The notes under the pieces: model-generated
The model's input: only the letters and a program-made list of their open reading frames with translations
Told to the model about the DNA's origin: nothing
Databases searched by the model: none
Part shown: piece by piece, positions 3,396-41,161 of the stretch
How positions within the stretch are numbered: the stretch's first letter is position 1
Layout: each line of letters opens with the position of its first letter
Program-made: the position numbers and the translations under genes
From: Galerina marginata
Lineage: Eukaryota > Basidiomycota > Agaricomycetes > Agaricales > Galerinaceae
Direction of reading: 5' to 3'
DNA: 64,000 nt
NCBI GenBank assembly: GCA_023014335.1
Contig: JAECYW010000020.1
Coordinates: 248,001-312,000 of the forward strand

Positions 3396-3402
3396 TAAGC
3401 TT

Positions 3403-6273: not shown

Positions 6274-6275
6274 GT

Positions 6276-6431: not shown

Positions 6432-9400
6432 ATGTCTTCCGGAGATCGGATCGCCGCCCTCGAGAGTGCCTTAAACGCGCTGCGGAGTGAAGGGGAACAC
6501 ACCCAGACACTCCTACGACAATTCCTTTCCCGTCTCGGATGTTCGGACCCCCCAGCCATTGTAACAACACCTGTAACACCATCCATTCCCCCTCCGCGCG
6601 TTTCCGAGTTTCCGGACGATTCCGCGTTTCCGAGCGCTGTTCCGGCTCCGCATGGCTCCGATTCCGCGCCCCTTCCGCCCCTGGGCATTCCCGAAGATTC
6701 GGAACTTTCTGAACTTCGGAAATCTGCTCTCCCCGCTCCCCACTCCCGAAATTTGGATTTTCCCGAATTCCGGAGTGCGTCTCAACCCGAGGCAGAGTGC
6801 CCAGGCTTCCGGTTTCCGGTTCCGAAATTTCGGAACTTTACTCCGCTTCGACCCGGAGTTCCGCCGGATTTCGACGGAGACCGCTCCTTAGGCAGATCCT
6901 TTCTTTTCACCTGCCGAACCTATATTCGTCTCGTTCCGACTGCTTTTCCGGACGTGACTGTACAAATACTTTGGGTTCTTTCTTTTATGAAATCAGGACG
7001 CGCGTTCCGCTGGGCGGAACGGAAACTAGCATCAGAACTAACGGAAGGATTTCCATGGACTGACTGGGCGGAATTCGAGCGCGATTTCCGGTACAACTTC
7101 ACTCCAGCTCATGCTGCGGCGACTGCCATTAATATTCTGGAAGGGTCAACATACTTCCAGCGAGGTCGCTCAGTGGATGACTACCTGGATGAGTTCCTGG
7201 ATCTTGTGCACGATTCTCAGTACACCGACCCCCGTACGATTGTGGTAAAATTCCGACGAGGGCTAGCTCAACGCATTTCTGTGGTTCTTAGCGGAATTGT
7301 GAGCGGCAGGCCCTCCGACGTGGATCCTGATGGGTGGTACCAATTGGCCGCTCAACTTGACCAAAATCAACGGGCGGATGAGGCTTTCCTAGCTTCCTAC
7401 TCTCCAGACCCACTCCCTGCTCCGACACCTGCTCTCCCGAGTCCCCTTCTCAGCCAACCATTGGCTGTTGAAAAACTTGAGGAGCAGAATTTTGATGTCC
7501 GTCATATGAGTCAGGTTGAGCTGCGGAAAGGTTTAGAGGATCGGTTGTCCGAGCTGAGCCATATAGCGGAGGACAAGTCAAAGGAGCTGGAAGAAATTCC
7601 AGTGAAGCGGAAAATGGTGCGCGCCTTGCCGCGGGTGGTTCAGTCTTCCCCGCTGCCTTCCAAAAACCGCTATTCAGTCCTTGAGGTAGACTCAGTCCCA
7701 GAGCCTACCGAAGAACTGATAAGCATTGAGGATTTGCCACCGCCGCCTCTCAAAGCGACAACTCCTCCCAAGGCCCAGACTCCGCGACGGGCTAAATGGG
7801 AGAAACGGATGCATGACCGGTTGGTTATTAACTCGATGAGCCCTGGACCAACCTCCCTTATTCTTCCGGTGCACCTCAAAAGCACGGATACTATGGTTGA
7901 GGTTGGAGCGGATGCTCTCGGTGACACTGGCGCCACTGGAGATTTCATTGACGAGGACTACGTCAAGGAATGTAACCTCCCCACTCGGAATCTATCACAG
8001 CCAATTCCCGTTTATAATGTGGATGGATCTCTGAATGAGGCTGGTTTAATCTCCAAGGTGGTAGATGTGCTCATGACCTATCAGACACATTCCGAGCGTA
8101 TCCTTCTTGCTGTCACCAAACTCGGGAAGCAAAAGGTTATCTTGGGTTACACTTGGTTTAAAAAGCACAACCCAGACATTGACTTCACAACGGGTACTGT
8201 GAAAATGACCAAGTGTTCCCCCAGGTGCTGCTCAGGCTGTCGGACTGAAATCCGGGAGGAACGCAAAGTCCAGAAGGCAATCATGCGCCATATCAATGCT
8301 TGCAAAATGGGCGATCTCCCAGACTTGGTCAATGATCATGAGGATGATGAGGAAGATGATGACGAGCCCATTCCGTCTTCTTCTCCCTCTCCAGAGGATC
8401 CTGCTCTTGAAGAAGGTGACCGCATCTTTGCTACTGGGCTTTTACCAGAAGCAGAGCACATCCGCGCTGGTTCAACTATTTCCCAGCGCCTTGCGGAAGC
8501 CTTCAAGAAGAACTCTGAGCCCACGGACTTTGATAAGCACGTTCCTGAGCACCTCAAGGACTTCCATTCGGTGTTTTCCAAAGAGTCGTTTGATAACCTT
8601 CCTGAGCACAAGCCCTGGGACCATGCGGTTGAACTTATAGCTGATGCCACACCACGCAGCTGCAAGGTCTACCCGCTTGCGGTCTCAGAGCAGAAGGAAC
8701 TCGACGCTTTCATCAAGGAAAACCTGGATTCGGGTCGCATCCGTCCTTCCAAGTCCCCCATGGCATCTCCCGTCTTCTTTATTAAGAAGAAGGATGGTTC
8801 TCTCCGCCTCGTCCAGGACTACCGCGCACTCAATGCTATGACGGTGAAAAATAAGTACCCACTCCCACTCATTTCAGAGTTAATCAATAAACTCCGAGGT
8901 GCAAAGTACTTCACCAAGCTTGATGTCCGCTGGGGTTTTAATAATGTCCGGATGAAGGAAGGAGATGAGTGGAAGGCTGCTTTCCGGACCAACCGTGGAT
9001 TGTTTGAACCGCTCGTCATGTTCTTTGGGCTCACCAATAGTCCTGCCACGTTCCAGACAATGATGAACGACATCTTTGAGGATTTAATCTCAGAAGGTGT
9101 TGTAGTCGTGTACCTCGACGACATCCTCATCTTTACGGAAACGCTGGAAGAACACCGGAAGGTCACTCAAAGAGTACTTGAGCTCCTGGAAAAGCACAAG
9201 CTCTACCTCCGGCCGGATAAATGCGAGTTTGAGCAGACCACAGTGGAGTACCTTGGAGTTATCATTTCCCATAACTCTGTGGCTATGGACCCAGTCAAGG
9301 TGGCAGGAGTTGCGGAATGGCCAGAACCCAAAAACAAGAAAGAAGTACAGTCCTTCCTGGGCTTTACCAATTTCTATCGAAGGTTCATCCGTGACTTCTC

Positions 9401-10254
9401 TGAACATGCGCGCCCGCTCTTTGATCTTACGAAGAATGACGTGAAATGGTCTTGGGGAACAGATCAGCAGGCTGCCTTCGATAAGCTTAAGCAGTCTGTT
9501 ACTTCTTCCCCAGTCCTCATGTCCCCTGACTCCACCCGTCCATTCCGCGTTGAAGCCGATAGCTCTGATTTTGCAACTGGAGCTGTGCTGTCTCAGGTCT
9601 CCCCGGATGATGACAAGTGGCACCCCGTCGCGTTCTACTCCAAATCACTGTCCCCTGTCGAGCGGAACTATGAAATTCACGACAAGGAAATGCTTGCTAT
9701 CATCCGCTCTTTACAAGAGTGGAGGCATTTCCTTGAAGGCGCAGAACACCAGTTTGAGATCTGGACGGATCATAAGAACTTGGAGTATTTCATGACCGCA
9801 AAACAGCTCAACCGCCGTCAAGCTCGTTGGTCCCTGGTCCTTGCCCGGTTTGACTTCCTTATGCACCACAAACCAGGCCGGACTATGGGAAAGCCGGACG
9901 CACTATCTCAAAGAGCAGATCATGGCACTGGATCAGAGGATAATTCCAATATCACTCTTCTGACTCCAAAGCTCTTTGCGATTCGTGCTCTAGAGGCAGT
10001 TGAGGTTGTGGGCGCTGAGGTTGACATCCTCCGTGATATCCGCAAAGGTGTCAAAGGTCCTATTGAGGAGGAACCGGTGGCAAAGGCAGTTCAAGCGCTT
10101 AGGAAAACCTCCGCTCGCTCTATCCACTCTAGTGAATGGTCTGAGCGCGACGGTCTCCTATACTTCCGAGGCAAGATCTATGTTCCACTTAACTCAGATC
10201 TCCGCCGGCGCATTGTCTCCGCCGGCGCATTGTCTCCCTCTGCCATGATACTCG
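6432..10254 (+). CDS. Gypsy gag-pol, up to the frameshift (Gag, protease, RT, RNase H)
   Basis: The frame starts at the ATG at 6432. A Pro/Ser/Phe-rich leader is followed by a Retrotrans_gag domain (about residues 160-290, e.g. [15 protein letters not shown]). Next come a retropepsin site GDTGATGDF at about residue 497, a Ty3 RT with [13 protein letters not shown] and the active site [10 protein letters not shown] at about residue 894, RNase H ([34 protein letters not shown]), and the start of the integrase linker. There is no CCHC knuckle in the Gag region. The natural frame ends at the 17-bp duplication (10203-10236); the open frame itself drifts on out of register to 10589. Confidence 0.93.
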
Positions 10255-10285
10255 GATTGCTGGGCATGCTGGACGGTTTAAGACC

Positions 10286-11686
10286 TTGGAAATGGTTTCA
10301 CGGAATTATTGGTGGCCAAACATGTCAAGATATGTTGGCCGGTATGTCGCTACCTGCGATATGTGCCTCCGAACCAAGGTCCAACACCGTCTACCATCTG
10401 GTGAACTTGTTCCTCTCCCAGTCCCCTCCGACCGTTGGCACACTATCAGCGTGGACTTCATTGTCGAGCTTCCGGACTCAGCAGGATACGACGCAATCAT
10501 GGTTGTTGTGGACAGTGCTGGTAAGCGGGGTCACTTCATTGAGACCACCACTACTATTACCGCTGCTGGAGCCGCCCAACTCTTCCTGAAGCATGTCTGG
10601 AAGCTCCATGGACTACCCTGGAAAGTTGTCTCCAACCACGGCTCCCAGTTCATTGCCGAGTTCATGAAGGAGCTGTACCGCCTCTTAGGAATCCAGCTTG
10701 CTCCGTCAACTTCCTACCATCCGCAGACCGACAGCCAGACGGAGCGTGTCAATCAGGAATTGGAACAGTACATCCGAGTCTTTGTCAGTGAACGTCAAGA
10801 TGACTGGCAAGGACTCCTCCCACTTGCTGAGTTTGCATATAATAACCATGTGCACTCCTCAACTCAGCATACTCCATTCCTACTTGACACTGGACGGCAT
10901 CCGCGGATGGGTTTTGAGCCTCATCAGCCTCCGTCTAAGCTTGAGGCAGTCAATGAGTTCACTCAGCGGATGAAGGACACTTTGGAGGAAGCCAAGGCAG
11001 CTCTAACCAAGGCTAAGGACGACATGGCTAGATATTATAATCAGCGGCGAACACCAGCCCCGGTGTTCAAAGCTGGAGATAAGGTCTATTTGGATGCTAG
11101 CGACATTCAGACAACTCGCCCATCCAAGAAGTTTGCTCATCGCCGCCTAGGTCCTTACTTGGTTGAAAGGAGAATTGGACTTAACGCCTATCGACTTCGC
11201 CTTCCAGTCTCTCTTAAGCGCCTTCATCCGGTCTTCAACGTGATCAAGCTGACACCTGCCCCTGATGATCCTATCCCAGGAAGGAGAGCTGTGCCGCCAC
11301 CACCGCCAGAGCTTATTGATGGGGAAGAACACTATGAAGTAGAGGAAATTCTCAACAGCCGCATGTTCCGCCGAAAGCTCCAGTACTTGATCAAATGGGA
11401 AGGCTATGGTCCAGAGGATAATTCTTGGGAGTATAAGGATAATATTAGTGCTCCTGAGCTTGTCACCAGATTCCACCAGCAGAACCCAGGAGCACCGCGA
11501 CAAATCCATGCCTTAGCATTTGGCTCAATTCCTTTCCGACCTATTACCAGTCTTCCTATCGCATCGAGGCGATGCTCATTTGAGGGGGGGGTAATTGTAA
11601 GGGGAACTCTGCTTCCGATTTCCGAAGCTCCGATTTCCGGGTCCGACGTTCCGGAGTTCCGCTCCGCTCCACCTGTCCGGACGTGA
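10286..11686 (+). CDS. Gypsy integrase and chromodomain (frame after the frameshift)
   Basis: This is the continuation of pol in another frame. It holds the end of the integrase zinc domain (YWWPNMSRY...CDMCLRTK), the catalytic core with [10 protein letters not shown] (first Asp), then SNHGSQF where the family has SDRG(x)QF, and the Glu in [11 protein letters not shown]-terminal GPYLVE / HPVFNV region follows, then a chromodomain ([26 protein letters not shown]) as in chromoviruses. Chromodomains of this class bind histone marks and steer integration. Asp-to-Asn at the second catalytic position should abolish integrase activity. The true start is not an ATG here; it depends on the upstream pol frame. 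Confidence 0.93.
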
Positions 11687-11943
11687 TTCCGAAGATTTCA
11701 TTTTATTTATGGACTTTATTTTATCGTACCACTTTTATTATTTTACATGCGACACTTGCCCTAAAGTGCCTTTTCTTATATATACTGCTCACCTAGCATT
11801 GGGTTCCCACTTTTCCCTCTTTGGTTCCCTGCTAGGTGCGTTTAGATAGATTAGATTAGATCACCGCATTTAATATATTGACTTTGGTTCCCTGCTAGTT
11901 CTCCGATCCATTTCCGGCATCCCGGACTTCAGTTGCCCTTACA
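11596..11943 (+). repeat. Gypsy 3' LTR
   Basis: 348 bp, preceded by a G-rich polypurine tract and followed by the CCGTT duplication. The integrase-chromodomain ORF as read runs into it and stops at 11686. Confidence 0.97.
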
Positions 11944-11947
11944 CCGT

Positions 11948-14900
11948 TCCGCCGAATATAACAGCAATAATCTGTCTTGAGCTGCGTGAATCCGATCTCG
12001 GCGAGTGCGCGATTAAGTTCTCGGTTCCAAATGTTGCCTGCTTGCTTTAATCCGTAAAGCGAACGAATGAGAATACACACTCGAGGTGTTCCATCTTCGT
12101 ATCCGGGCGGCTGTTGCATGTAAATTAATTCCTTGAGGGTGCCGTGCAAATAGGCGCCCTTGACATCAAATTGTCGAAGCTTTAAATTGTGCACCGCGGC
12201 GAATGCGAGTATGGTGCGTAAAGTTTCGAATCGCATGACTGGTGCGAAGGTTCCATCGTTGCTGAAGTCCGTTCCAGGTTTCTGAGAAAATCCCTGGGCA
12301 ACAAGACGAGCTTTGAATTTAATGACTGTCCCGTTTTCGTCTTTTTTCTTCCTGAAGACCCATCGGCTTCCAATTGCTTTGCGATCCGCCGGTAAGTCGC
12401 CCATTTTCCATGTACCCATCTTTAATAATATGTTATATTCTTCATCCATCACATCCTTCCACTCTTTAGCTTCTGGAGTTGCGAGCGCTTCTTCTGGCGT
12501 GTTAGGTAAGTCGGGATCCGCCGCCGTAAATGATAATTCGGCCTCTTCCATTAGGGCGCTAAATAATTCTTCAACAGCAATATTTGCTCGTTCTTTTGGC
12601 GTCGACTTTGCCTTAGAAGACTCCGTGGCTCGGGTAGGATCTGGTTCGGCGAATCGAGGTGCAGGAAGTCGAGAGTCGGGGTTTCCGAGTCGTTTATAAT
12701 CGATTTCCTTTGTTCTAGTACGAAGTCCTCGGGGTGCATTTGGTATTATAGGCGTTGTTTGAAGATTTGGAGGTGTAACTGGGCGATTATTTGAAGTTTC
12801 CGGCTGTCTTTGTGCTTGAGAGGGTTGCTGAGAGGGTTGCTGAGATGGTACTGTAATTTTCTCCCCCTCAGCTTGCACACCCGGTAATTCAGCAACTTTA
12901 TCCGATTGCTTTTGTCCTTCATTTTCGTTGAATACAAAATTCCGTGAGACTTTGATATTCCGCTTTGCACGATCATAATATCGTATGGCCTTTGATCCAT
13001 CCTGAAATCCAACAAATACCATTTTGTGCGATTTCGGCTGTAGTTTGGATCGATTTTTCGATTCATCGAGTATCCATACGTCGCATCCAAATTCCCGTAA
13101 GTGAGAAACGTCGGGTTTTGTGCCTGTCCATGCTTCAAACGGTGTGCAATCCTTAAGCGCCCGTGTTGGCGCCCGATTGCGTAAGTAAGTTGCGTATGAT
13201 GCCGCTTCGTCCCATAGGAATGGAGGAAGATTTTTAGCAAATAACATTGCACGGACTAGCTCCAAAATTGTGCGATTGAATCGTTCTGCAACTCCGTGTT
13301 GCGAGGGCGAGTACGGTGCTGTTGTCTCGATGGTAATTCCATTTTCTTCTGCCCACTTTTTCGTTTTCGCGTTAACTAATTCCTTCCCATTATCGAAACG
13401 AATCCATTTCGGGTACTGTCCTAAGTGCCGTTTAATTTGTTCACAACGGTTTTTAATTTTCTCCTCGGCTTCGTCCTTTTTCCGTAGAAATAACATTGTC
13501 CCGAAGCGTGTGCAATCGTCAATGAAAGAAATATAATATTTTGATTTCCCGATTGATTCTGTAGGCGCTGGTCCCCAAACGTCGGACATTATGCGTTCTC
13601 CTGGCGTTTCCGAACGGTGTTCTGCTTCCTTTGGAAAGGGTTTATGTGCCTGCTTTGCCTGTATGCAAGCTTCGCATGTGTGGGACGGAATTGTTGACTG
13701 ATCAATTTCGAGTCCGTGAACAAGTCCTTCAGCGTCTAAGCGCTCGAGGGATTTAATTGATATGTGTCCGAATCGTCGATGCCATTGGTCCCAGGATGAT
13801 TTATCCGTTGCATTCGAATAATTGGTTCTTTCCTGTCCAAGTAGTTGGGCTCTTGCATCCAATAGGTATAATCTACCTATTTTCTTTCCTGTCCCAACAA
13901 TTTTGCCGTTTTTGTCTTTGAGAATGCATTTTCCTTTTCCACCAATAAATTCTCCCCCTGCATCGTCGAATTGCGTGCCCAAGAGAAGACAATTAGACGC
14001 ATTTGGTACGTGTAAAACGTTTGATAATTTATGCGTGATTATTTTTCCTTCCACGGAAAAATTAACTTTGATGGTTCCGCGTCCGGAGGCTGTGGCTGGG
14101 GTTGGTCCAATTCCATCAATCGTGGAATTTACGAGTGGGTGGTATTCAATAAATGCATCCCGCTGGTTGCAAATTTGTGAGGTGGTTGCAGTATCAAGGA
14201 ACCAATCATATTTTGTGGAGTGATGATTTTCTGAAGACATGTATGAAATGTCATTTATTGAACTGCTCTCCTGTGCTTGACTGGTTTTATTTCCTCGGTG
14301 CGGACCTCTCCTTCCCTTTGGTCCTTGACCTTCTTTTCCTCCTCCCTTTGCCCAACAGTCCTTCGAAAGATGTCCTTTCTTGTGACAATTATAGCATTCT
14401 TTATCCGAATTTTCCGAATTCGGTTTGGCCCTCCCGCGAGCCTGTCCTTTCGCCTGTAGCGCGGTGGCGGAATCCCCGTTTCGGCCTTTCCGCTGCCGAT
14501 CTTCTTCCAATAAAATCGCTATTAATTCGTGCGAGGTAAGTGTGAGTTTATTCCCACTGGATCCCAGGTAGGACGACGTGTAATTATCCCATGATTCGGG
14601 TAACGAGGTGACAAGAATCATAACAAAATCTTCATCAGGTATTTTGCTCCCCATTATGTGTAGTTCCTCCTGTAATTTCCGTAAATTAGAAATATGATCC
14701 ACCATATCAAATCCTTCTTCGGCTGTAGCGCGATACAGTGCGCGCCGTGTAGCAAGGACTCCAAGTCGGCCTTTTGATTCTTTTACCATGGTGAGCTGTT
14801 CCCACATTTCGCACGCGGTTTCGGCGCCGCTGATGTGTATCATTTCGCTATCTCCAATAGCAAGCTCGATCCGCGTGCGTGCTTTCGCATCTCCAGCGCG

Positions 14901-15098
14901 CCAACGCTTTTGCTCCGCAGTCTCCTCATCCTTGGGGTTTTTCGGGTCAACTGATTCTGGAATTTTCGCATCTTTAGCGATATATTTTTCCAGTCCAAGG
15001 TCGCGTAATACCGCAAGCATTCGACGCTTCCATGGCATCCAATTTGTGGCCTTCAGTAATTCCATTCGGTAAGATCCTGATGTATGTTCTTCCGACAT
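11948..15098 (-). CDS. Copia gag-pol, 5' portion (Gag, protease, integrase, start of RT)
   Basis: The frame begins at the ATG at 15098, 83 bp inside the 5' LTR. In order: a UBN2-like Gag region; a CCHC zinc knuckle (CYNCHKKGHLSKDC); a protease site (LDTATTSQIC, with DTA in place of DTG); integrase HHCC (H..H, CEACIQAK) and the three catalytic positions SDVWGP, RFDNGKE and VAERFNR; a Pro/Gln linker; then the front half of the copia RT (RQFDVKGAYLHG, SLYGLKQAG). Coding is broken at the gypsy insertion site just before the RT active-site motif. The ORF as read continues about 50 bases into the gypsy LTR before a stop. Expected to be non-functional in this copy. Confidence 0.9.
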
Positions 15099-15169
15099 GG
15101 TGACGAGATTTAATAAGATGAGAGTGAGTGTGGCTGCCTAGTTATTTCGGGGTTCTTTAGTTAAGGCCG

Positions 15170-15181
15170 GGGCCCATAACC
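15170..15181 (-). promoter_or_regulatory. Copia primer-binding site, initiator tRNA-Met anticodon-arm type
   Basis: The minus strand directly after the 5' LTR reads GGTTATGGGCCC. This is complementary to GGGCCCATAACC, the anticodon arm of eukaryotic initiator tRNA-Met, not to a tRNA 3' end. Use of such an internal cut end is known for Drosophila copia and some fungal copia elements. Confidence 0.75.
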
Positions 15182-15430
15182 TATTGAGCGCAGTGTGATA
15201 AAAAGTAAGAATAGAATTTTATTTGTAGTCTACGAGACAGTTTATATACCTAGAAATAAGTAGAGTAGAATGTACTACATAATTCTAATACTAGAAAGTT
15301 TGTGTGGAGGTGAATAAGAGATTATTAAGCGAATTAGTAATCTACGTAGTAAGTGAGTAAGCGCCGGCGTAAGTTAGCGCCGGCACATGATTGGCTCGGA
15401 GATTGCCTCGGCCATGAATCTATCCCAATA
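15182..15430 (-). repeat. Copia 5' LTR
   Basis: 249 bp, ends TATTG...CAATA, bordered on the outside by GCCTC. Carries T at 15301 where the other LTR has C. Confidence 0.95.
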
Positions 15431-16636
15431 GCCTCAATCCGCAATCGGATTTTTGCAGCGTACTCTTATCGTAAGTAGTATTCTAAGCATGTCTTTATAA
15501 TAATTTTAGCACCAATATTCGTTGTACAAAGTTCGAAATACATAGATTTTTCGATAGGTAAGCTATATCTTCAAATAGGCTTTGAATTCCGGTGATATAA
15601 GCGCGCTGAGTACATATATATAAGGTGGTAGGTTTATAGAATATTAATGTGCTATTAAATACGCAATCTACGTGGCGCATTACTGCCATTTTTAGTACAT
15701 GGGAGGAGGGTATACCCATCGTCATTTCTTCATGTTAACCCTTCGGCGCTCTCGATTTAACGTCGTTCCTACTTATATATACATTGGGAAGACATAAATG
15801 TGAAGAAACCTTTGGTCTAGGTGCCCTGGATATTGAATAGAATGGGTATCTCCCCCCACAGTCATACACATATACAGGCTGATCTCCCCTGTAAGCGCCT
15901 CGGAATACTGGGCTTTTAACATTAAATGAGTATACTAAACAGACTTAGAGAGTAAAAATAACCCTACAAAGGCTGGGATGTATATATTTCATCACACCTT
16001 CTCCTGCCCTACTAATGCCCTTACCATTCCCCCCCAAGGTTGTCCCCTTGCCCTCAAATTCTTTAAATTTACCCTAATAATTACAGTATATATTTTTATA
16101 GTATAAATGTATGAACTGGGCCCTCAAAAAAGCGAAGAGAGGCATGTTCTCCTCCTACCCCTAGCCTAGTTGCCCTGTATGTTCTCCTGTACTATCCATG
16201 TGCCCTGTTAAACCCATCCAAAAGCTTAGAGTAGTTTGTTAAATAATTATAGGCTATTCTTTAGCCCCAGAGACTGCATAGATATAGAGGAAACTACCTA
16301 GAAAGTACCCAGGAGAAGTACCTTGCTTATCACCTTTATATACCCTTAAAATATTCAATAAAAGCGACAATAAATCTTTATTAATACATATAATAATGGG
16401 TGTGCAAAGAAAGTAGGAGAAACGAGGCGGGAAAGGTGAAATATGCGTGCTCACTGTGCCCGACAGCGAGCACAAAGGGTCTGGGACTCTCGACATCAAT
16501 GAATGATGGCGCGGCATCACTTACGTAATGTACAACACTTGCAATTATTAAATAGATATTTTCGGCAGACCTGTCGGCACTGGCCAAACATCGGTGTTTA
16601 ACCGAAAACCGAAGCTGGTCCATCCCTGTTGCCATA
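15431..16636 (-). repeat. Right arm of palindromic element (with second copia TSD at its inner edge)
   Basis: It starts with the GCCTC duplication (15431-15435), then runs as the inverted copy of the left arm out to CCATA at 16636. Unlike the left arm it is uninterrupted, so it shows the pre-insertion structure. Confidence 0.9.
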
Positions 16637-24958: not shown

Positions 24959-26741
24959 CTTGTCAATGGCTTGAGCGACGTTGCGGATGGCGAGAGGAAA
25001 GCCAAAGCCACCAGAGAGGGAAGAGGTTGGTTGGTTGGTTGGTGTGAGAGCGGGCTGAATCGAAGAAGCAGGACTGAGAGGGTTCGGTTATATAGCTCGG
25101 GCTCTAAGCGGGCTACCTCGCGAGAGAAATTCGCGGCGCGGAAAAAAGGCCCAACTTTCAAGTTTTTTTTTTCTTTCTTTCCGTCCAAAGAGGAAACCGA
25201 AAGTACAGTGGGGCAAACCCAACAATGCGGGTCCCTAGCTCAAATTAGAGTTATATATATATGGCACCGGTGGGAGGGGCGATCGGGTCTGGATCTGGGC
25301 TGTCAACTGAAGCTAAGAATAAAAAGAGACAATGTAGGTCGGCTACCACAGCAGTCAAGGTTTCGAGCGTCGGTCGGTCTGACGCAATCAGTTCGAATTC
25401 GAAGCGAAGTAGGAAGGAGATAAGGCGACATAGGACACAGAGGGGGTACACGCGAGATAAGCATAACTAAGCCCCCTTGGTCAGCGACTGACGCCTATTC
25501 GCGGTTTACACAGGGAATGGCGTTGCTCGTATGTGTGTAAGAAGTATTTTGAAACGGAAGCATCTGTAGATTCGATTATATGGGGCAACTTCCTTTAAAA
25601 ATCAAGATCAGGCACTTACGCGATTCAATGATGGAGGTCAGGTGCCCTGGGCGCGTCCGCCTTCGCAGTTCTGAGTTCGCACTCATTCAAAGTTCTAACT
25701 TCTTGCCCTCTGACTGAAGGCATTCACGCCACAAGTAAAACTGTTATCATATTCATCAAGCTGTATTTCGAATCGGCCTTTTCTGCCACAGTGACCCCCC
25801 CAACGGAAGCAGTTGGCAAGCCAAATACCCTCAAGCGCCTCGCCGCCTGCAGGTGGCGGCCAAGTACTAGTATCATAAGACATGCCATTGTCCGGCATCG
25901 CAACTATATTTGACAGCGGCCAAACACGGTGAGCGGCGCGTGAACGTTCGCCCGACGCAGGCGCGGTCCAGACCCTGAGGCCTGAACCTTTGAGGCATTC
26001 CAAAACGCGACGCGCTCCGGTCTCCGTAGAAAACGAGGTTGCGTGAGCCGTGCGCCGTGCGGGACGGGTGTGCGCACTTGTACTCCGATGCGCGCTACCG
26101 CACCGTACGCGTCTAGACATTGAAGCCGTGGTAGACGACGCGACGGGATTCAGACGTCGACGCCTCCCCTGATTCCGCACACCAAGCGGGGATTATGACT
26201 GACTGACTGACTGACTGCGGAGGTAATCATTTATTTCCGCTAGGCCTCCGCAGAGGTTCGCGGGAGGCATCCTGGGCCAAGGAGGGATAATTAGTATACC
26301 CTTCCTACATATAGATCAAGAGTGACGTACCGATCCCAATTCCATGTCTAAAGTTCAGGGCGTCCACACAAACTACACGCCCTTGTGACCATGTTCACCT
26401 GCCGACAACATCGCTCCCCATGTCGCATGCCAACCTTTCCCCAATATCACGATGTCGCATGCCATTGCCTTTGACACCTGATCCCAGAAGAAGGAGGATT
26501 TCGTGAAAGGTTCCAAGAAGACCTATAGGCAGCCAATAGCAGTTATGACTTATTTTATCACCTAGAAAGAAAGAAAGAATTCAAATGAGAGAAGGGAACA
26601 ACGCTAACAATGCATATGATGACTGGCCAGAGTCTTAAATCTCGAAGAACTCCAACACGTACTCTCACTTGGTCAGTCGAAAAAACAAGTTCCGATGCGA
26701 TCCCTTCTTCTCGCATATGTGGCGCTCGAGACCATGGTCCG
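24959..26741. other. Intergenic stretch up to the large transposon
   Basis: It holds the 5' region of the DUF6593 gene, an ORF of 161 codons at 25695-26180 (-) with no recognisable motif, a short GACT microsatellite at about 26197-26216, and the left copy of the 6-bp duplication GGTCCG (26736-26741). No gene is called. Confidence 0.5.
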
Positions 26742-27383
26742 TATGGCGGTCAACCTGCACATTTAATCAAGCGAGCTAGCGCCACTCGTTTTGCGAGCCA
26801 CTTTTCGGTAAATTTCGTGTCTTCCGAGCCTTTTTTAGGTAGATTTGTATTCGAGCCAATAAAATAAAACATGAGCACTCTATTTCTGAATTTGCGAGCC
26901 GAGCCACTTTCAAAGCGAGCCACCTAATATTTAATGAGATGCTAAACTACAGTTCTACGAGACAAGCCACATAAAATAAAAGCAACACCTAAACTTTGTT
27001 TTCCGAGCCTACACTTGAATTCCGAGCCTACCTTTGATTTCCGAGCCACCTTTAATTTTCGAGCCACCTATTGAACTGCGAGCCACATATTTGAACTGCG
27101 AGCCACATGTTGAATTCCGAGCCTACTTTCAGCCGGGCGGAAGTCCGTGCCAAACAATGACAAAGGACTTCCAAATATGGGAGGCAGCAACAGTAAGTGG
27201 CCGATTTCACATAGGGCGAGCTTTTACTAAGCTCCAAAATTATGATAACTAGAATCTAGGCATTGTTAGCTTTCGATTGAGCCCAAAATCGCCATCGTCG
27301 GTGCATTATTTCATGCAAAACGACAGAAACATATGTAGGTAGGGAAGTGCACGTGGTCATGTGACCTGCGCGACGCGTCGTGG
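26742..27383 (+). repeat. Left terminal inverted repeat
   Basis: 642 bp. It carries about a dozen copies of a short motif (G/C)CGAGCC(A/T)(A/C)C spaced roughly 15-60 bp apart. Its inner edge is the palindrome CGACGCGTCG. Differs from the right TIR at about ten positions, most of them transitions. Confidence 0.95.
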
Positions 27384-28155
27384 AAGGCTTCGGAACGGAG
27401 TAGAGGAGTAGAGAGTGTTTAGATAGATTGTGACATTATAATATTTGAAATCAATGTATTCAGGTGAGCTATCTACGACTATCTACGACTACCTAACTCT
27501 ACTAAATGGATGGGATCATTCGTAGACTAGAATGAGTTGAAAGAACCCAGAACAAGTCAGAAAAATGAGAATGCAATCTGAATGCGATGGAGAAACGTAA
27601 GAACGTAATGCAAATGCAATGCTAAAAGAGAGTGTGGATAGAGAGGGAGAGTTAAATGCAAAAGTCGGAAAGGGGAAAGGAGCGATTGTGGCTAGAAGGA
27701 TAGTGAATGGCATAGAGTGTGAGCAAAGCGGGCCAGGGCAAGGATTAGAGGAATAAGGAAGAGGGAATAGGTAGACATATGTTGATTAAATGATAATAAG
27801 GTATCACTATTAGCAACTTATAAGGTAGAAATGGCTCAGATATGGAACATTAAACTCGTAAAGGTAATGCGTCGGAAGTTCTATGGACATGAAAGAAGTT
27901 ATTGACATGGAAAGGTGGCATCAAATGAGGGCGGTCGTTATAAGTATAAGGAAAACCAATGAAATTAAAAGGACAATGGATGGTAAAATGAAATTGATGC
28001 AGCAGGCAGAATATCCGAGGTGGAAAGGAGAGGAGAGGAGAGATTCCAAGAGAAAGAACAGTGCAAATGGTGGCAAATGGTACAGGGAAATATGATATGA
28101 TATGATGTGTTGTCAAGTCGTTGCTATTTGCGGGGGAGTGGGGGGGTAAAAGACT
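27384..28155. other. Non-coding interior next to left TIR
   Basis: 770 bp with no convincing gene; the 3' flank of the first transposon gene. Contains the short repeat CTATCTACGACTA... near 27470. Confidence 0.5.
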
Positions 28156-29970
28156 CTAAACCCAAGGATCATAAAGCAGCGGTGGTGCAGGTGAAAATCC
28201 GCGCCTTGGAGATGAAGCGGGTAATTCAGGTGGGAGCCCGACTTCAAATTCTGGATCTTCGATATGAGGAAGGGGGGCTGGCACAAGTGGCGCAGGTGCG
28301 GGTGCAGGTGCAGGCACAGGCACAGGCGCAGGCGCAGGTGCAGGTGCAGGTGCAGGCGCAGGTGCAGGCGCAGCCTGAGGCGCGGTTTGCGCTGAAGATG
28401 GGCCAGCAATAGCAGCGGGTCCAGATGTGTCGTGTTCCGAGTCATATTGTTGAAATTCATTTGCATACCAGCTGTGGAACCAGCCAGGGGATTGCTGCGG
28501 ACTATTGGAGGCTGGGATTAAATTGGTAGGTAATCAGTACGGAAGTTTAAGTCATAAAACTTTGACACTTACTTCGTGACCTCTTGCTCCTGCTACTCTG
28601 GCGACCTTCATCGGATCCATCCTCAACTGATGGAGAGCGTTGTCGTTTACGACCACATATTTTCTTGGGTGGTGGAGACGGGGAGTAGTCACTGCCATCT
28701 ATGTCTGAATTGAGAGTAATAGAATCGTGCGCTTGTCCGGAAATCTTCTGCTGCCTGCCGCGAGTGATTCTTCCTGGAATCCGAATACTAGGTCCAGGCT
28801 GAGTTGATGTTTCTCTTGCCTTTTCCTTTCCCTTGCCTTTTCGACGTGACTTGACTGGCGTGGACTCCACAATTTCAATGTCACCCTCCGACTCAGTCTC
28901 TTGATCCGGATTGGCTATTTCAAAGCCAAGAGGATCTGCAATTGCTGCTTCCCAGTTACTATATACAGCTGGAGGTATCTTGTGGCGAACACCTGGCAAG
29001 TATAAGCTGAAGCTAATCAGGGACAAAATAAAATACACACTGATTGCCAATTTGTACGACAGATAATTCCTCCCAGGAGGCCCACGAACCAGAAATAAAT
29101 CTGATCCTGACATTGAGGCTCGATCAAGAACAAGGTAATTTCGTCCATCCTTTTGAAGAAGGATCCAATGGTATTGGCCCTTTTCAGGTATGCCCCAGCG
29201 CGCATCTAACCACTGAAATGCCAGAGGAAAGAGAGAGCGCAACCAAATATCAATTTCAGCTTGGTTCCAACTGCGATTAATAGCTAAAGCATCTTTTGTG
29301 GGTGTCTCTGTAACGAGTAGTCCTGCTGGTCGAAATACTTCTTCTAGGAGCCTTTTCGAAGGACCAGAGGCTTCTCTGAGACTCCCTTTTGTCTGTAAGC
29401 AGAGGAAAGAGTTTATTCCAATAAATAAAAATATTAAAAGTGTTGCTAGTTGACTTACATTGAGTCCGCAAGGTATCAAGATAATAGTTCCGACTTTGAA
29501 GGGTCGAGAACCATGGCCAAATCCTGAAGAATGTGCATTTATTGTAATGCCCATTGTTGTGTTCTAGAAGAATCAGAGAAGATACTGCATTAGCAAGTGA
29601 AACCTAGGAGGATGACTCGACTGACCTTCTTGTCTTTGTTTGAAGGTTTGGAGTCACGATATCCAGCATTAGATTCACGTTTTGCAGCGGACATCCTATT
29701 AGACGAAGAAGCTGTATCCATGCTGCCAGCAGCTACAAGTTTCATACGAGACGAGTACTTTGCAAGGACGTCACCAACACGCGTAGGGTTGGTAGCTGTA
29801 GTAGGAAGTCTAGGATCAGGCGGATCAGGCGTTGTCGACGATGGGCCTTGGTCTTGTGCAGGAGGGTGAGGGTGTTTGCAATTTGCACACTTCATGTCCT
29901 TCTCTCGGGCAACGAAGCACTCGCATTCACAAGTTTTTCCGTTTCTCCGAACAGCTCCGCATTGCGGCAT
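28156..29970 (-). CDS. Transposon-borne protein with N-terminal Cys cluster and Pro-Ala repeat tail
   Basis: Five exons joined in phase: 29970-29626, 29563-29459, 29392-29041, 28992-28573, 28511-28156; 525 residues. The first 36 residues carry a Cys/His cluster (C4, C14, C16, C18, C28, C31, then H) that looks like a zinc-binding module. A Ser/Thr/Pro linker follows, then a central globular part (RPFKVGTIILIPCGLN; EIDIWLRSLFPLAFQWLDARWG; YHWILLQKDGRNYLVLDR), and a basic stretch (KSRRKGKGKEKARE) plus PPPKKICGRKRQRSPS that look like nuclear localisation signals. The tail has about 15 Ala-Pro pairs and ends LLYDPWV. I recognise no known family. The position beside the transposase suggests a DNA-binding or assembly partner; that is inference. 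Confidence 0.75.
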
Positions 29971-30240
29971 GTCAGCGGATTGTCCAAAAGTACTTGGTGA
30001 GAGCTAAGAGCAGGCTAAGGAGTGTAATATTGAAAAAATAAAGGAAGGATTATTATAGGAAAAAGAAGTAGTGACAAAAGAGGTGGTGGTGGTGGTGAGC
30101 GAACGTTAAGACAAACATTAATTTTGTCCAACACATCTGTTAGCAAATAAATATAAACTCAGGTCACGATCCAATGTCCAATGTCATCTAGTCGAACTCG
30201 CACTTCAGCTCAGATGTAAAATCTAACTAGATAATCCTAG
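29971..30240. promoter_or_regulatory. Spacer between two transposon genes
   Basis: 270 bp between the 3' end of the transposase gene and the start of the Cys-cluster gene; presumably the promoter of the latter. Contains a (GGT)n run near 30085. Confidence 0.4.
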
Positions 30241-32202
30241 TTAATTACCGTAACGAATCTGCATTTCTAAGACCAATTCAAGCGCCTGAGCCCATCGGAC
30301 AGCCCTCAACCACCAGACCTCAAAAGGTAAAATAACATCAACCTCCTTCCTTGCTATAAGAATGACTTCGGATTGGGGATAAATACCGTCAACCCATTCG
30401 TCTTCAGAAACACCGAAGCCCAAAGGAATTTCCCCAATTGTATCCAGTTCTCGAAGTGCTTCGCTGAAAGCATGTTCTGCCTGCGGACTTGAAAATGGAC
30501 TCCGACCTTTTGGTGTGTCTATTGCATCATGGCGTATTTTGCGTCCTTGATCCTTAGCAATCTTTTCAGCAAGTTGTTGGCGGTTAAGGTCATCACCGTA
30601 TTTTGCAGATATGGCTGGGTGGATCTCCCCCTCAGCATTGTTGTCAGAAGACCGACCAACATAACGGCCATATTTGAGTTCTCCAAGAAGTCGCATGTCC
30701 TAAAAAACAAACTATAAGGAACTGATCTAGCAGAATTAAGAAACCACAAACTGCAGGTGACTTGTCATGCCCACGCCGTGAAATTGGGTGGTGGTTCCAA
30801 TCTTCCTTGAATTCTTGCAAATTTGTGTTAATGTCCTTGAGAAAAAGGAAGTGGAGGAGCCAAAGGTGCCATTTTATATCAATATTGAGGTGGTGAAGCC
30901 GTTCAAGTCTGCCAAAAAATGCTTTCCATCTCCGTACCACTTGTGCGCCAACTTCTACCCACATACGCTCAGCGCGCACATTTCTTGGAGAGCTATAAGT
31001 TTAAATATATGAGAGGTAAATTGAGAATAAATATGTAGGTAAGAGTGGAAGCAGGAGCAACGTACTCTCCCCAGAGGAATGAAGCCCGGTTAGGGCCATG
31101 ATAAAGTATCATCCAGACAGAGACATCAACATTCTCTCCACCTCTGTCCCCACGCACACGAGCAGGTACTCCAAACTCATCAACAGCATCAAGGAATGTC
31201 GTGAGGACAGTAGAAGCTTTGTTGTCTGTATGTGCTTCTATTCCAACAACCTTTATAAGAAATGATCAAAAGAATGTCGAATAAGTCAGTTACAAAAGTA
31301 AGATCAAGATCCGTACCATGCGATCACATCCATCGAAGAAACCGTGCACTACTACCCCCCATCGAATCAATTTATGATGTCCATCCATATGCCAAACAGC
31401 ATTTATGTGGGCAGCTTGGTAGATTTGTCGTTGAATGCGCCGCTGGTCTCGAAGTGCCTGACCTACTGCATCAACGCGTCCCAGCGAATGCCTGACCTTC
31501 TTCTTTGGGACTTTGATTCCGTTTTTTTGAAGGTAACCAATCACATAACGCAATCCAGAATTTGGTTTCTGTGACTTCAAGTGCCGAAGTAGAATGTCAA
31601 TCTCATCGTCAGTGATTGTGGAAAAGTCGCGTGAGATACCAAATAGGTTTAAGTATTTATGCAGTGTATTCCGATGGACACCAATTGCATCTGCAAGAGC
31701 ACATACAGAAAGCTTTCGGTGAGGGGCAAAAGCATCCTCAAGCCAACGTGGTTCAATAGATTTGGGAGGGCGGCCACGTCGTCCAGTGTGCACAGTTCGG
31801 ATTGGTGTTACCCATTCGAGCTTCCCTTTCGATCTGGGTATACATGATAAATTTGAGTGCAATCCTTTTGGTAAGATAAGATAATGCATGACATTGTACG
31901 CACTGTGAATCAAAGGCTGAAGCTACAGTTTGTAGGTCAGAAACAACAGACATGAACTTTTCAGTACAGAGTGTTATCCACTCTAGGTTGTTTGGCATTT
32001 CAACTTCAATTGCTCGAAGGATCGGGATGGAATAATCCAAGACATTTCGTGCAGTTAATCGAAGGCGGATTGGCTCTCCTTCCTCCGTTTGAAGCAGTTG
32101 CACAGCTCTTGAGTATGACTGCAAAAGGATTGCATATGCTTCCACCACCTGATGGGTCCAGTTTTGAGTAGGAGGGAGCTCTGGAAATGTTAATGGGTCC
32201 AT
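30241..32202 (-). CDS. DDE integrase-like transposase of the 11.2 kb element
   Basis: Five exons joined in phase: 32202-31904, 31833-31317, 31250-31066, 30992-30752, 30699-30241; 566 residues. Order: a helical N-terminal region; GRRGRPPKSIEP (AT-hook-like, residues about 120-130); a helix-turn-helix (LSVCALADAIGVHRNTLHKY); then the integrase core with HMDGHHKLIRWG (Asp250), VRGDRGGENVDV (Asp307) and RNVRAERMW (Glu342). The second Asp and the Glu have 34 residues between them. A C-terminal helical region follows (FFGRLERLHHLN, DWNHHPISRRG). The core matches the integrase-core proteins common in agaric and fish genomes. No stop or frameshift was found and all catalytic residues are present, so it may be active. 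Confidence 0.88.
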
Positions 32203-33623
32203 ACTACAATCACAGCTTAGTGGGACAAAAGATCGAAAGTTCAGATCAAATAAAATGCAAACATGATGTCCAAATTAGGACTTGCAGGCAAAGCACGTTG
32301 GGCGTTGGGCGTTGACAATGTTAGTCTCGGCGGCTACCCATACTCTAACGGGACGATTGGCTGTATTGAAAACACATTGAAAATTGAAACACCCATCCAT
32401 CGGCAAAAGGCAAAAGACTGTATTCATAAGTACCTAGATACGAAAGGCTAGATACATGTAAGTAAAGATATACGATATGATATGATATACGAGCATAGAA
32501 TAAAGCTAAGGTCTCACCTCAGTCTTGTTGGGGGCAAAAGACTGAGGTGGCAAAAACGTAGAACTTCCATGACTGGGATGGCATTAGCAAGGTTTAGTGT
32601 TGAACAAGAAAAAAAGAGCGTTGCATGCTTCAAGACCTACCAAGAATCCCTTTGTCAGCTCACTTCAAGCACCCCGCAAGTAGGTATTACGCCTAAGAAC
32701 GCGGAACGGATGAGGCGACGGGGTCCAGCTGGCTCTGTTGCGGGCTTGTCCAAACGCCGCAGGAAGGAATTCGTCGAGGTCGAGGGTGGTACGCGAGGCT
32801 TCGTGGGTTGTTTTTGATGCGTTGGGGCAGTTAGAAGGAATTTGTCGAGGTCAGGGGGGGTGGTACGAGAGAGGCTTCATGGGTTGTTTTCGATGCGTTG
32901 GGGCTGTTGTTAGAAGCAATGTTCAGCTTCGCCAATGTGCATGTCTATGCATTGCCAAATATCTATGCTGCTCAGGATGCGGAAACAAACTCTTTGCCGA
33001 TGTTGCGACGCCTGGTGCAAGTCTCCACGCGGAAAACATCGCAGATGAGTGGCCTTGCTGTGATGTGGCGGCAAACGCAGGGTCTCAAGACGTGCTGGAC
33101 AGAGCTGGAACATGGTGAAATGCGGACAGGCTGCACGGGGGGGAATCAGCTACTCACCACAGTGTGATCCACTTCCTATTCCTCCCAGGTCTTGCAAGAC
33201 CCCATCATTTTTAAACCATCCATAATGATCAGAAGCCTGAGGATGTCGGGTACATCAAGGGGAAGTGTTCAGCGGTAGAAGTTTGAGTGGATGAGGCAGC
33301 GCGTGTAAGATCTGCGAGGGTCATTAGTTGGGTCCACAGGAGTAAGTAATATACATACGCGAGACATTATAATGGGCTGCGATGGAGACAGAGGAAACGG
33401 AGGCCTAGATTGAGAGAGAAAGGAGGACGGACACAATGATGACAGTTCAAACGTTCAAGATTCACGGCGTTTGCCGGCTGGCTGAGCGTTACAATCATGA
33501 GGCTGCAATGCGGCACAACATACTTAATCTCTTCATGTCTTTCGTTTGCGAACTTGGGTTCAACTTCTATTCCACTTTCTGACCGTTCATATACCCCTTC
33601 ACTTAATCACTTAATTACTGGCA
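32203..33623. other. Non-coding region between transposase and BTB gene
   Basis: 1.4 kb. An imperfect direct repeat of about 65 bp lies at 32766-32827 and 32838-32905 (GTCGAGGTC...GATGCGTTGGGGC). Other ORFs here are short and without motifs. The 3' part should hold the BTB promoter. Confidence 0.5.
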
Positions 33624-34740
33624 ATGTCTATATACCCCTCTCAGACCCAGGTTTCTCAATCACAACCTACTATCCCAACTGAGCGGCACCCAGTCTTTTA
33701 TTTTGACGATGGTACTATCATTCTTCAGGCATGTTGCTCAAAATTGAGAATATCTGTTTAAATCAGAAATTGAATATTTATGTAGGTGTCGGGCACCGAT
33801 TTGAACGTTCTGTACAAGCTTCATATTAGCATTCTTGCAATGCGGTCAAGATTCTTTGATGGCCTACTGTCTATTCCTCGGGACCCAAATTCCACCACGC
33901 TGTCGCTTTCTATGGAGGGAAAGAATGATGATTTTCCAGTCTTTTTACCTACAAAAATCACACCGGCAGCATTTGATGATTTATGCAAATATCTTTTGCT
34001 TGGGCCTAGGTAAAAACAATTCAAGCAATTCACCGATCACAGTCTTATTTACCTCCTCTTACCTGATCTGAAGCCAACATCCAAGCTCTGAGGCCTTCCT
34101 TGTCAATGTCCTCCACCTCTCGACGTTCTTAGAAATTGAGGACGGCATCGCCTTTGCTGTCTCGCAGTTCGAGGAACGAAAGAGTCGGAATGAGTTTGAT
34201 CCTGCATTGCAGTTTGCCCTTGCACGGCTACATCGCGTGGACCATTGGATCGAAGACGCATTCCGACGTCTTATGAAAGTCTCCATAACTGACCTTTCCT
34301 TTGATCAGATGCAACTCATCGGTGACAACGGCTTCTATCATCTTGCTTATACCAAAGCAAAAATTGATATCATGTACAAAGGGCTTGCATTTGGAGCGCC
34401 ACCCTTTGTAAGTTCCTTCTGCGGTAACGATGAAGGCTGTGAATCGGCATGGAGAGCTGAATGGGCAAAGTTTTCACCAAAACTTCTACATCCCAACGTT
34501 GTAATGACTGGTGAGGAGATCGTATCAAAGGTGGAGTCCGTGAGAGTGGCCGGGCTCTGTAATGGCTGCAGGGAGTTCACGATCAGCTTTCTCATTCAGA
34601 AGGGTTCACTGGTCAAGGATGAAGTTTACATTGCTGAAGCGGTTAAAGATTTAATGCTGATCCAGACGGACGCAGAAATCAGGGCTCGTATGCATGCCGC
34701 AATTGAAGCACAGGAGATAGCATTGACAGGACGTAACTAG
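33624..34740 (+). CDS. BTB/POZ-domain protein carried by the transposon
   Basis: Three exons: 33624-33728, 33786-34009, 34086-34740; 327 residues. The first intron appears to use a GC donor (CAG|GCATGT), the second GTAAAA. The N-terminal BTB core reads HPVFYFDDGTIILQ, LYKLHISILAMRSRFFDGLL, then FLPTKITPAAFDDLCKYLLLG. A helical region follows (NVLHLSTFLEIEDGIAFAV, ALARLHRVDHWIEDAFRRLM). This is the form of the large agaricomycete BTB family; such proteins usually dimerise and can act as Cul3 adaptors or transcription cofactors. Convergent with the gene to its right and on the opposite strand to the other transposon genes. It may be captured host cargo or an integral transposon gene; one copy cannot tell. 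Confidence 0.82.
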
Positions 34741-34761
34741 AGTTGGGACTTTGTAGTTAGG

Positions 34762-37174
34762 TTAGGATTGTTTAGGACGTCGCTTTCGTCGTAGACCCTG
34801 ATCCATATCATTTTCTGTCTCATCAGCATTTACCGCCAATAATGCCAGCATTTTGTCTGCGCTCAAGCGGCGCTTCTTGGCAGCTGGCACTTCTTGAGCC
34901 ATATTTTCTAATCCTGGGGTACAAAGTGGCGTTAGACGCGAAGCTGAGGGTGGAGGCAGTGAAGGGGTCAACGATGAAGAAGAACAAGGGAATTTGTCAG
35001 GAACAATGGCTTCATTTGCTCGCTTTTTCTTCTGGGTACTGGTTAAGGTTTTCCGACGAGTTCCAGGGCGGTCTAACCCTGCCGATTTTCGTTCGAGGCC
35101 ATTGAGTTCCCGTTGCATGTAGTATTGTGGTACCAAAGGGTCATGTCGGACAATTGATAGACTAATAGATAGATCAGATCGTGTCAACCATAAATGTGAC
35201 GTGAAAAGGTAGAACTATAGAGCATAACGTACATTTTTTGGCCATGAGGCAGTTCAACAATTTTGCCGTTACCACAATACTCCAATGGACCAATTGCTAC
35301 GGCCTTGGTGTTGGCAACGATTGTTTTGAAGAGCATAGCATGCCGTTCTTGGCCTACTAGCTGAACTATTTTCTGTTCAGAACTGGAGCAAAATTCAGAC
35401 GCATGTCACATTCATAAAATATCTCATAGAATACCAACATACCTTGCTTTGATCTCGGGTGAGATGCGAGACTGTTGAGGAAATGCTGGAGTTATCGACC
35501 AAACCTGTTTGCCTGCACGATATGTATATGTTGGTCGATGTCGCCATATTTCACGAGAATAGGGGACAAATAAAGTCCCATACAGACTTTGTTTCAGAAA
35601 GGTTGGTTTCCCTGTAACAATCAAAAAAATAAACCAAAAAAATGGGACATTAAGGATCAAATATTAGATACCTTCATGAGAAAATATTCTTGAGAGGGCA
35701 TTTGGCTTTCCAGGTAATCTTCCATATGCCGCCCAGACATCTTGACCGAAGATCAAGTCGCCCAAGTGGAACTCCTTCTCAAACGCATCCTTCAAGAAGT
35801 TAGGCTCGAACACATCATAAAAGGGAAGTGGTTCAGATGAACGATAAGAGACCACATTTGACAGTTCAATATTTTTGACAGCTGTCTAGAATATATTAAG
35901 TACAATGATAGATTAACTGCAAGAAATTCAGACTTACAACATAGGCGTCAATTAGCTCGGCCATACGCGGAGTAACAGCTGATTCTTTCTTTGCATAAAC
36001 GTGAAGCCACGAGCTGTATCTGAGGCGTTGGGTCAAGGTAGGTGCAAGCACGCGGTCCTGAATGCAAGGATTGAGAAGAGAACTAAAAATGCAATTCTTA
36101 GAAAGAGAAACCAATACAAGAAAATTGACAAACGGCAAATCCACAATTGATTTATGTTTGTATCGCCAAAAGGCCTCACAGATGCGGGCAGTTCGAGAAA
36201 GGTTTTCGAATACCTCCACTTCGGACAAAAAGGGCGAAATGCCTAGATTAAGACCTGTCAAAAATAACCAAAGGAAAACATAATGAAAGTCTGAATTACC
36301 TGCAAGAAAAAGGATTTCACAGACAGTGTACACCCCAACGCCAAACCAGATATGGTTCGCGTTCCTTATGACCTCACAAACAAGGCCGACACGCTTTGAG
36401 GTAGATGAACGTCGGCTCACAATCCAGTCGGCGACGAGTTGTAAAAAAGCGCAATAGTCATGGTACACATCAACGTAACCATTCTTCAAATCGGTTAGTG
36501 AGTCACTCCATACAGGCTATTTCATAATTAGTAACATTCAAGATGATATAGAGTTGAGTTTACCTGAAATACGAGGTCGTTAGAAAGGAATGCAATGAAA
36601 TACTCCTCGAACTCCAGTGCAAGGCCAACATGGAACCCACGATCCTATAGGTTGGACGTCATTACCAGCCTCAAAAGAAAGGAATTCATGTGCTCACCTT
36701 TTTACTAATTGCCAAAATTGATTGTTCCCATTGTTGCCGAGTATAAAATTGAACCGAAGTATGGGTCAAATATGCAACCTTGAATCGGATACAAGTAAGA
36801 AAAAATCTGCGGGCACTTTAGGCGGAACTCACTTTCAGAAAATATGTCCCAAAATCCAGGATAAGTGCCCTACTTGCAGAATGCGAGTTCTGCAAGGTAA
36901 GCGTACTCAAAGATGGAGGATTCTTAACCTTTGCTGTTTGAGCAAAAGCAGGAGGAAAGAGTGGGGTTTGATGGCCCCTGCTTCCGCGCACTATCTTACA
37001 GTCCGGTTCAAGCTTAAAAACATGTCCATCTTTTGCATTGTAATGGCCTTCTTCCGATTTCGAAGCATCTGCGTAAAGTCCCAGCAGTTGGAAAGCTGCT
37101 CCTTGTTCGCGAAGTTCTTTGAAATTTTTCTCAAAGAGATACCCGTGAGCATCTTCTTCCCGTGATTCAGGCAT
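34762..37174 (-). CDS. Large unknown transposon protein with basic, nuclear-type C-terminus
   Basis: Multi-exon gene of about nine to ten exons, supported by consistent phase at each join that I checked: 37174-36833, 36778-36698, then exons beginning DRGFHVGLALEF, PVWSDSLTDL, GLNLGISPFL, TAVKNIELSN, KPTFLKQSLY, SSEQKIVQLV and HDPLVPQYYM. It starts at MPESREED; an in-frame Met at 37300 inside the TIR would add a hydrophobic leader and seems less likely. The body is mixed alpha/beta with many aromatic residues and no motif that I recognise. The C-terminal part has three basic clusters (RRKTLTSTQKKKRAN, KKRRLSADK, LRRKRRPKQS) fit for nuclear import or DNA binding. Edges of the middle exons are approximate. 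Confidence 0.65.
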
Positions 37175-37277
37175 GAGAAAAGTGGAGAAGCAGCAGCTGT
37201 GAGTGAAAATAGCAGCAGGGAAGCCAATGAGAGCAAGAGCAAAAATAGAGACTGACAGCGAGGGAAGTAAACGAGCC

Positions 37278-37919
37278 CCACGACGCGTCGCGCAGGTCAC
37301 ATGACCACGTGCACTTCCCTACCTACATATGTTTCTGTCGTTTTGCACAAAATAATGCACCGACGATGGCGATTTTGGGCTCAATCGAAAGCTAACAATG
37401 CCTAGATTCTAATTATCATAATTTTGGAGCTTAGTAAAAGCTCGCCCTATGTGAAATCGGCCACTTACTGTTGCTGCCTCCCATATTTGGAAGTCCTTTG
37501 TCATTGTTTGGCACGGACTTCCGCCCGGCTGAAAGTAGGCTCGGAATTCAACATGTGGCTCGCAGTTCAAATATGTGGCTCGCAGTTCAATAGGTGGCTC
37601 GAAAATTAAAGGTGGCTCGGAAATCAAAGGTAGGCTCGGAATTCAAGTGTAGGCTCGGAAAACAAAGTTTAGGTGTTGTTTTTATTTTATGTGGCTTGTC
37701 TTGTAGAACTGTAGTTTAGCATCTCATTAAATATTAGGTGGCTCGCTTTGAAAGTGGCTCGGCTCGCAAATTCAGAAATAGAGTGCTCATGTTTTATTTT
37801 ATTGGCTCGAATACAAATCTACCTAAAAAAGACTCGGAAGACACGAAATTTACCGAAAAGTGGCTCGCAAAACGAGTGGCGCTAGCTCGCTTGAATAAAT
37901 GTGCAGGTTGACCACCATA
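37278..37919 (-). repeat. Right terminal inverted repeat
   Basis: Inverted copy of the left TIR with the same repeated GGCTCG motif. Its inner end overlaps an upstream extension of the neighbouring gene's ORF (Met at 37300), so the TIR probably provides that gene's promoter. Confidence 0.95.
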
Positions 37920-37925
37920 GGTCCG

Positions 37926-38196: not shown

Positions 38197-41161
<2,965 letters not shown>

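Follow-up and report, generated by a model that had tools for sequence, protein, structure and literature searches.

IS3EU (IS3EU/GingerRoot) transposons are characterised by TA..TA termini, a target site duplication (TSD) of usually 6 bp and an integrase-type DDE transposase (PMC10045372). In rust fungi and Tuber indicum, TET+ IS3EU elements have been described that encode a transposase, a TET/JBP protein and an alpha-kinase, with TET/JBP placed between the other two; the rust families have TAYGG..CCRTA ends and 6-bp TSDs, and TET/JBP genes are reported to move between transposon lineages (PMC12730594). VANC proteins of the Arabidopsis VANDAL transposons are transposon-encoded and counter epigenetic silencing (PMC5735166, PMC10398659). 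Here we describe an element at positions 26742..37919 of a 64-kb stretch of Galerina marginata DNA, which is called the window in the following. We propose that this window element is a multi-gene IS3EU-like transposon with an anti-silencing glycosylase, encoded by the gene that we call gene 4, and we give this explanation as a whole a probability of about 0.4.

Results

The window element resembles the IS3EU superfamily in its termini, its TSD and the type of its transposase. The ends TATGGCGG and TATGGTGG give the termini TATGG..CCATA, which fit the TA..TA pattern of IS3EU and the TAYGG..CCRTA pattern of the rust families. The 6-bp TSD GGTCCG is perfect on both sides, and the transposase is an integrase-type DDE enzyme with D250, D307 and E342 (Pfam PF24764, E = 1.5e-58). 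Because of these three characteristics, we assign the element with high confidence to the IS3EU-like class. The terminal inverted repeats (TIRs) of 642 nt each differ at 8 positions, and all four genes are open once spliced, with splice models based on sequence and protein homology (Table 1). A preliminary description made from the letters alone had claimed a well-bounded unit with equal TIRs, a perfect target duplication, an intact catalytic triad and three spliced genes beside the transposase, and all of this was confirmed, with models of 525, 331 and 615 aa for the three genes. The element looks like an autonomous DNA transposon of the cut-and-paste type, and its genes form a modular set of transposase, Cys-cluster protein, BTB-like protein and a protein of predicted Fpg/Nei fold (gene 4), which is read from the side of the right TIR towards the interior. 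A scan for end pairs (TAT/TAC ends, ≤ 3 mismatches in 16, identical 6-bp flanks, 1–17 kb separation) gave three pairs in the 64-kb window including the window element, and none in three shuffles.

The extra genes of the window element are not mentioned in the part of the IS3EU source that was available (PMC10045372). Like the window element, the TET+ IS3EU elements have several genes, among them an accessory one in divergent orientation to the transposase; however, they carry TET/JBP and alpha-kinase, whereas the window element carries BTB-like, Cys-cluster and Fpg/Nei-fold proteins instead (available part of PMC12730594). Gene number, for which the locus had been put forward as a candidate undescribed system, does not set it apart, because multi-gene IS3EU elements are already known from the same part of that source. 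Among the papers listed by searches of openly licensed literature, none was seen to describe an Fpg/Nei glycosylase encoded by a transposon, or the gene set of the window element.

Table 1 Features of the window element (window positions) and gene-4 loci in the genome (C numbers, contigs)
Feature	Position	Strand	Details
Left TSD	26736..26741	.	GGTCCG
Left TIR	26742..27383	+	642 bp, starts TATGGCGG
Gene 2 (Cys-cluster/Pro-Ala)	28156..29970	-	5 exons, 525 aa
Transposase	30241..32202	-	5 exons, 566 aa, PF24764
BTB-like gene	33624..34740	+	3 exons, 331 aa, divergent from transposase
Gene 4 (predicted Fpg/Nei fold)	34762..37174	-	11 exons, 615 aa, N-terminus MPESRE; gene-4 locus of the window
Right TIR	37278..37919	-	642 bp, terminal CCATA
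Right TSD	37920..37925	.	GGTCCG
Gene-4 loci in K family copies	C18; C3 (159842-175411); C41; C1		
Gene-4 locus	C2		~2 kb from a transposase resembling that of the window (38% identical)
Gene-4 loci	C7; C8; C23; C3:288364		1.6-6 kb from a K-type transposase

The protein encoded by gene 4 almost certainly has an Fpg/Nei fold, judging from predicted structures of gene-4 family members, which have the Fpg/Nei core. In the viral structure library, only Gp292 of phage G and an Fpg of a Catovirus were found at E ≤ 0.001. The window protein starts with MPESRE and thus has Pro2, Glu3 and Glu6, and MPExxE is present in 62 of the 63 family members that have MPE within the first 60 residues. For the Pfam, database, genome, tree, phmmer and hand-alignment work on gene 4, a model of 619 aa was used, which is 4 residues longer than that in Table 1. 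Gene 4 shares the predicted core fold and MPExxE with the Fpg/Nei glycosylases (MutM, endonuclease VIII, NEIL1-3), but it differs from them in being about twice the bacterial length and transposon-borne, and it has no detectable profile similarity to them. The label "basic nuclear-type protein" given to it earlier holds for the tail and not for the whole protein; an ordinary basic nuclear protein was rejected by the fold prediction.

Gene 4 was found at 12 loci of the genome (G000, a 69.3-Mb assembly of 43 contigs; clustered rows counted as one locus). Ten loci were examined further, and all of these lie within or beside IS3EU-type elements (Table 1); the other two are on C40 and at C13:63596. 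Besides gene 4, the K family copy K18 (C18:388857-400526; 11,670 bp, TSD GTTTCT on both sides) contains an alpha-kinase, of which a spliced segment matches PF02816 with E = 1.1e-10, and a very distant transposase, of which a spliced segment matches PF24764 with E = 0.0088 only. Over 2.96 kb, the gene-4 ends of three K family copies share 99.66-99.80% identity in BLAST, which indicates recent movement of the family. Of 12 good K-type transposase loci, a weak thirteenth row being excluded, 11 have an alpha-kinase no more than 5 kb away, encoded on the opposite strand. Read in flipped orientation, the window element has gene 4, the BTB-like gene reversed and the transposase, while K18 has gene 4, the alpha-kinase reversed and the transposase; therefore, the BTB-like gene occupies the position of the alpha-kinase.

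In a phylogenetic tree of 27 of the 96 database proteins together with three genome copies, the gene-4 protein of the window groups with those of K18, C1 and Hebeloma with support of 100/100. The window and K18 proteins are 58.7% identical over 595 positions. In contrast, the transposases of the two elements show very little similarity, with one frame matching at E = 6.6e-4 in phmmer. The combination of a close gene 4 with distant transposases points to passage of gene 4 between transposon lineages. Accessory modules, namely alpha-kinase or BTB-like protein and the putative glycosylase, are combined differently among transposon lineages of one genome.

A second element at C13:504375-514534 (10,160 bp, ~100-bp TIRs at 94%, ends TATGC, TSD GACTTC) encodes the same trio of transposase, Cys-cluster and BTB-like protein in the same order and orientation as the window element. 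Its transposase exon frames are 35-65% identical to the window transposase, and its BTB-like protein is ~25% identical to that of the window. In the spliced model of this transposase, the last exon is out of frame, and the C-terminus was left out. The spliced Cys-cluster protein aligns to gene 2 with a score of 156 (300 shuffles: mean 35.8, standard deviation 5.4, maximum 62), and two introns are at matching positions; this homology became visible only after splicing and was missed by the genome search and by exon-level phmmer. The common order despite divergence argues that the trio has been transmitted as a set. It could be supposed that gene 2, gene 4 and the BTB-like gene are host passengers trapped by chance between the TIRs and without a role for the element, since BTB genes are numerous in the genome (60 frames at E ≤ 0.001) and only a single coding copy is seen with the window TIRs. 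We consider this very improbable: the trio recurs in a divergent element and is therefore not chance cargo, and gene-4 loci mostly lie in or beside IS3EU-type elements. Inside the second element, C13:506994-508016 is an open frame built of repeated units.

For the window transposase, 76 homologues were found in the protein database among the best candidates, which alone were scored; we take their named genera to be Agaricomycetes. Gene 2 consists of an N-terminal Cys cluster, a conserved middle and a Pro-Ala tail, as expected from the preliminary description; the tail exons are the least certain part of the model, and the protein has no match in Pfam. The BTB-like gene has a GC-AG first intron. 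The BTB/POZ label proposed for it was not recovered with Pfam (no match at E ≤ 1, PF00651 cut-off not reached; none at E ≤ 5 for the frames of the second element) but was supported by a profile of seven BTB exons from the same genome, which matched the window protein with E = 8.7e-9 and the second element with 9.9e-6 spliced and 5.4e-4 unspliced, while 1000 shuffles reached 0.44 at best. A PDB sequence search with the BTB-like protein gave no match, and the protein database held a single homologue, P0001, with 46% identity over 64% of the query.

Discussion

Based on the predicted fold and the conserved N-terminus, gene 4 probably encodes a catalytically active glycosylase, in which Pro2 would serve as nucleophile. 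The enzyme might excise modified cytosines or other lesions from the DNA of the element, for example 5-carboxylcytosine (5caC) made by TET/JBP enzymes that are encoded elsewhere in the genome. Base excision repair would then restore plain cytosine, and the transposon would evade silencing by methylation. Targeting or regulation of the excision may fall to the BTB-like and Cys-cluster proteins, as it may to the alpha-kinase in the sister elements. NEIL1 directly excises 5caC (PMC5566547), and the removal step for oxidised methylcytosine in fungi is reported to be undiscovered so far (PMC8889193). Anti-silencing through excision by gene 4 is a step that we infer and hold tentatively, at somewhat less than even odds; removal of silencing marks is the most economical reading, and roles in repair, transposition or binding are also possible. 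Fungal transposons carry TET/JBP dioxygenases (PMC12730594). More speculatively, mushroom IS3EU-type transposons may carry and exchange a divergent Fpg/Nei glycosylase that completes active demethylation, as a counter-silencing weapon complementary to transposon TET/JBP; if true, they would supply the excision step missing from fungal active demethylation. Because the gene-4 proteins are a widespread family found in transposons, are predicted to adopt the Fpg/Nei fold and keep the catalytic N-terminus intact, the removal of oxidised methylcytosine in fungi becomes directly testable with one purified protein. The likeness of gene 4 to VANC lies in the proposed counter-silencing by a transposon-encoded protein and is one by description only. 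VANC proteins are sequence-specific anti-silencing proteins and are not known to be glycosylases, the activity proposed for the gene-4 product.

Several observations weigh against the anti-silencing glycosylase. The folded proteins are family members that are 37-47% or less identical to the window protein, and MPE is absent from the first 60 residues in 33 of 96 members, many of them apparently truncated. In PDB sequences, no Fpg/NEIL was found with gene 4 at E ≤ 10; the family profile scores E. coli Fpg and Nei among the shuffles; and the Pfam H2TH domain was seen in one of 42 family members with E = 0.18, short of the cut-off. H2TH had no match in the genome either, and local hhalign of the family with Fpg/Nei gave a meaningless 15-column match. 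By hand alignment only, Lys57 of Fpg and the Asn of GxGN are seemingly not kept in gene 4; in the same comparison, which includes the finger Arg, the conserved Arg89 and Lys415 (619-aa numbering) are candidate counterparts. TET/JBP frames were detected in 18 rows in the genome (3 at E < 1e-19), none of which is in the window element, and none is within 100 kb of any gene-4 locus. Finally, gene 4 is near six of the 12 K-type transposase loci and near none of the other six, and it is absent from the second element on C13 (best frame E = 0.3). Gene 4 is thus not obligatory, and other copies with all four genes, proposed earlier as a check of the unit, were not found. The left-end frame of the second element, C13:505493-506035, was tried as gene-4 homologue and rejected at this E-value, and neither alpha-kinase nor TET was accepted for the window element, as none of its four gene models gave a match and the TET rows lie elsewhere.

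The seeming loss of Lys57 and Asn, the lack of profile similarity to active enzymes and ~150 extra C-terminal residues would suit a catalytically dead DNA-binding partner in the transposition complex, with ends that are bent, nicked or gapped as possible targets. We regard this as quite unlikely, because a protein without catalysis would hardly be expected to keep MPExxE in nearly all members with MPE at the start. Excision of oxidised bases is the classical activity of Fpg/NEIL enzymes, and gene 4 could be an active glycosylase/AP (apurinic/apyrimidinic) lyase that serves repair and not the removal of silencing marks. It would then act either on oxidised or deaminated bases, such as damage left by mutation resembling repeat-induced point mutation, or on strand breaks that excision leaves at the donor site. 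The predicted fold and MPExxE agree with such a role, and seven of the eight TIR differences are transitions (C/T or G/A), as deamination would give, in a very small sample. However, gene 4 is missing at half of the K-type loci and there is no sign of other cut-and-paste transposons needing a private glycosylase, so that a repair function is possible but somewhat unlikely.

Related elements and further observations

A second full-length copy with the window TIRs was not seen in the genome search. Six elements (L011-L016) have full-length related TIRs, 69-75% identical over ~530-610 bp. Their ends are TATGG, and the direct repeats that flank them measure 6 bp in four elements and 7 bp in two. 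Relatives of the window transposase were not found in these elements with phmmer; L016 has a 1552-aa frame resembling a Copia polyprotein by eye. The remaining TIR matches are fragments, and among them only short ones, at 90 and 95%, are closer than these TIRs, the closest being 203 bp at 95% on C40. Ends of this TIR type are mobile, but no coding copy with the window TIRs was seen apart from the window element itself. Recent movement of the window copy is not established, because TIR identity is no clock in DNA transposons; the recent or ongoing activity suggested earlier is weakened further by the missing second full-length copy and the low identity of the related TIRs.

Some observations concern the TIRs and neighbouring sequences. 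Window positions 27220-27303 (TIR positions 479-562) recur near gene-4 loci elsewhere, perhaps as a common promoter. On G000:C5, L020 4096-4417 is a decayed copy in which the end of the Pro-rich tail of gene 2 lies beside a TIR-end fragment. TIR fragments (82%) with the same scores and query coordinates occur near contig ends at C27:495809-496109 and C17:1187197-1187497 and are probably a duplicated chromosome end. Right of the element, window positions 39691-40591 hold three diverged direct repeats with a spacing of ~290-375 bp. Another IS3EU-like end pair in the window, at 1078-16636 (TATGGCAACAGGGATG, TSD AATAAA), is 15,559 bp apart. Judged by eye, it encloses a frame of Copia type (11898-15137, 1080 aa) together with others that are Gypsy-like; relatives of the transposase or the accessory genes were not found inside it.

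Elsewhere in the genome, C41:1983535-1998203 is a 14,669-bp element with IS3EU-like ends, TSD TCTGCG and long inverted repeats, which encodes a transposase resembling that of the window plus other frames. The K family copy on C3 contains a 345-aa frame (L059 967-2001, minus strand) that resembles a tyrosine recombinase by eye and has no match in Pfam. A TET/JBP frame at C29:155077-155394 (PF12851, E = 9e-9) is 4.3 kb from a window-like transposase, and the end scan gave no TSD/TIR pair at this locus. Five TET/JBP-like frames at C23:2791967-2870203 are spaced by 19,462-19,468 bp and represent either a tandem array of ~19.5-kb units or an assembly artefact.
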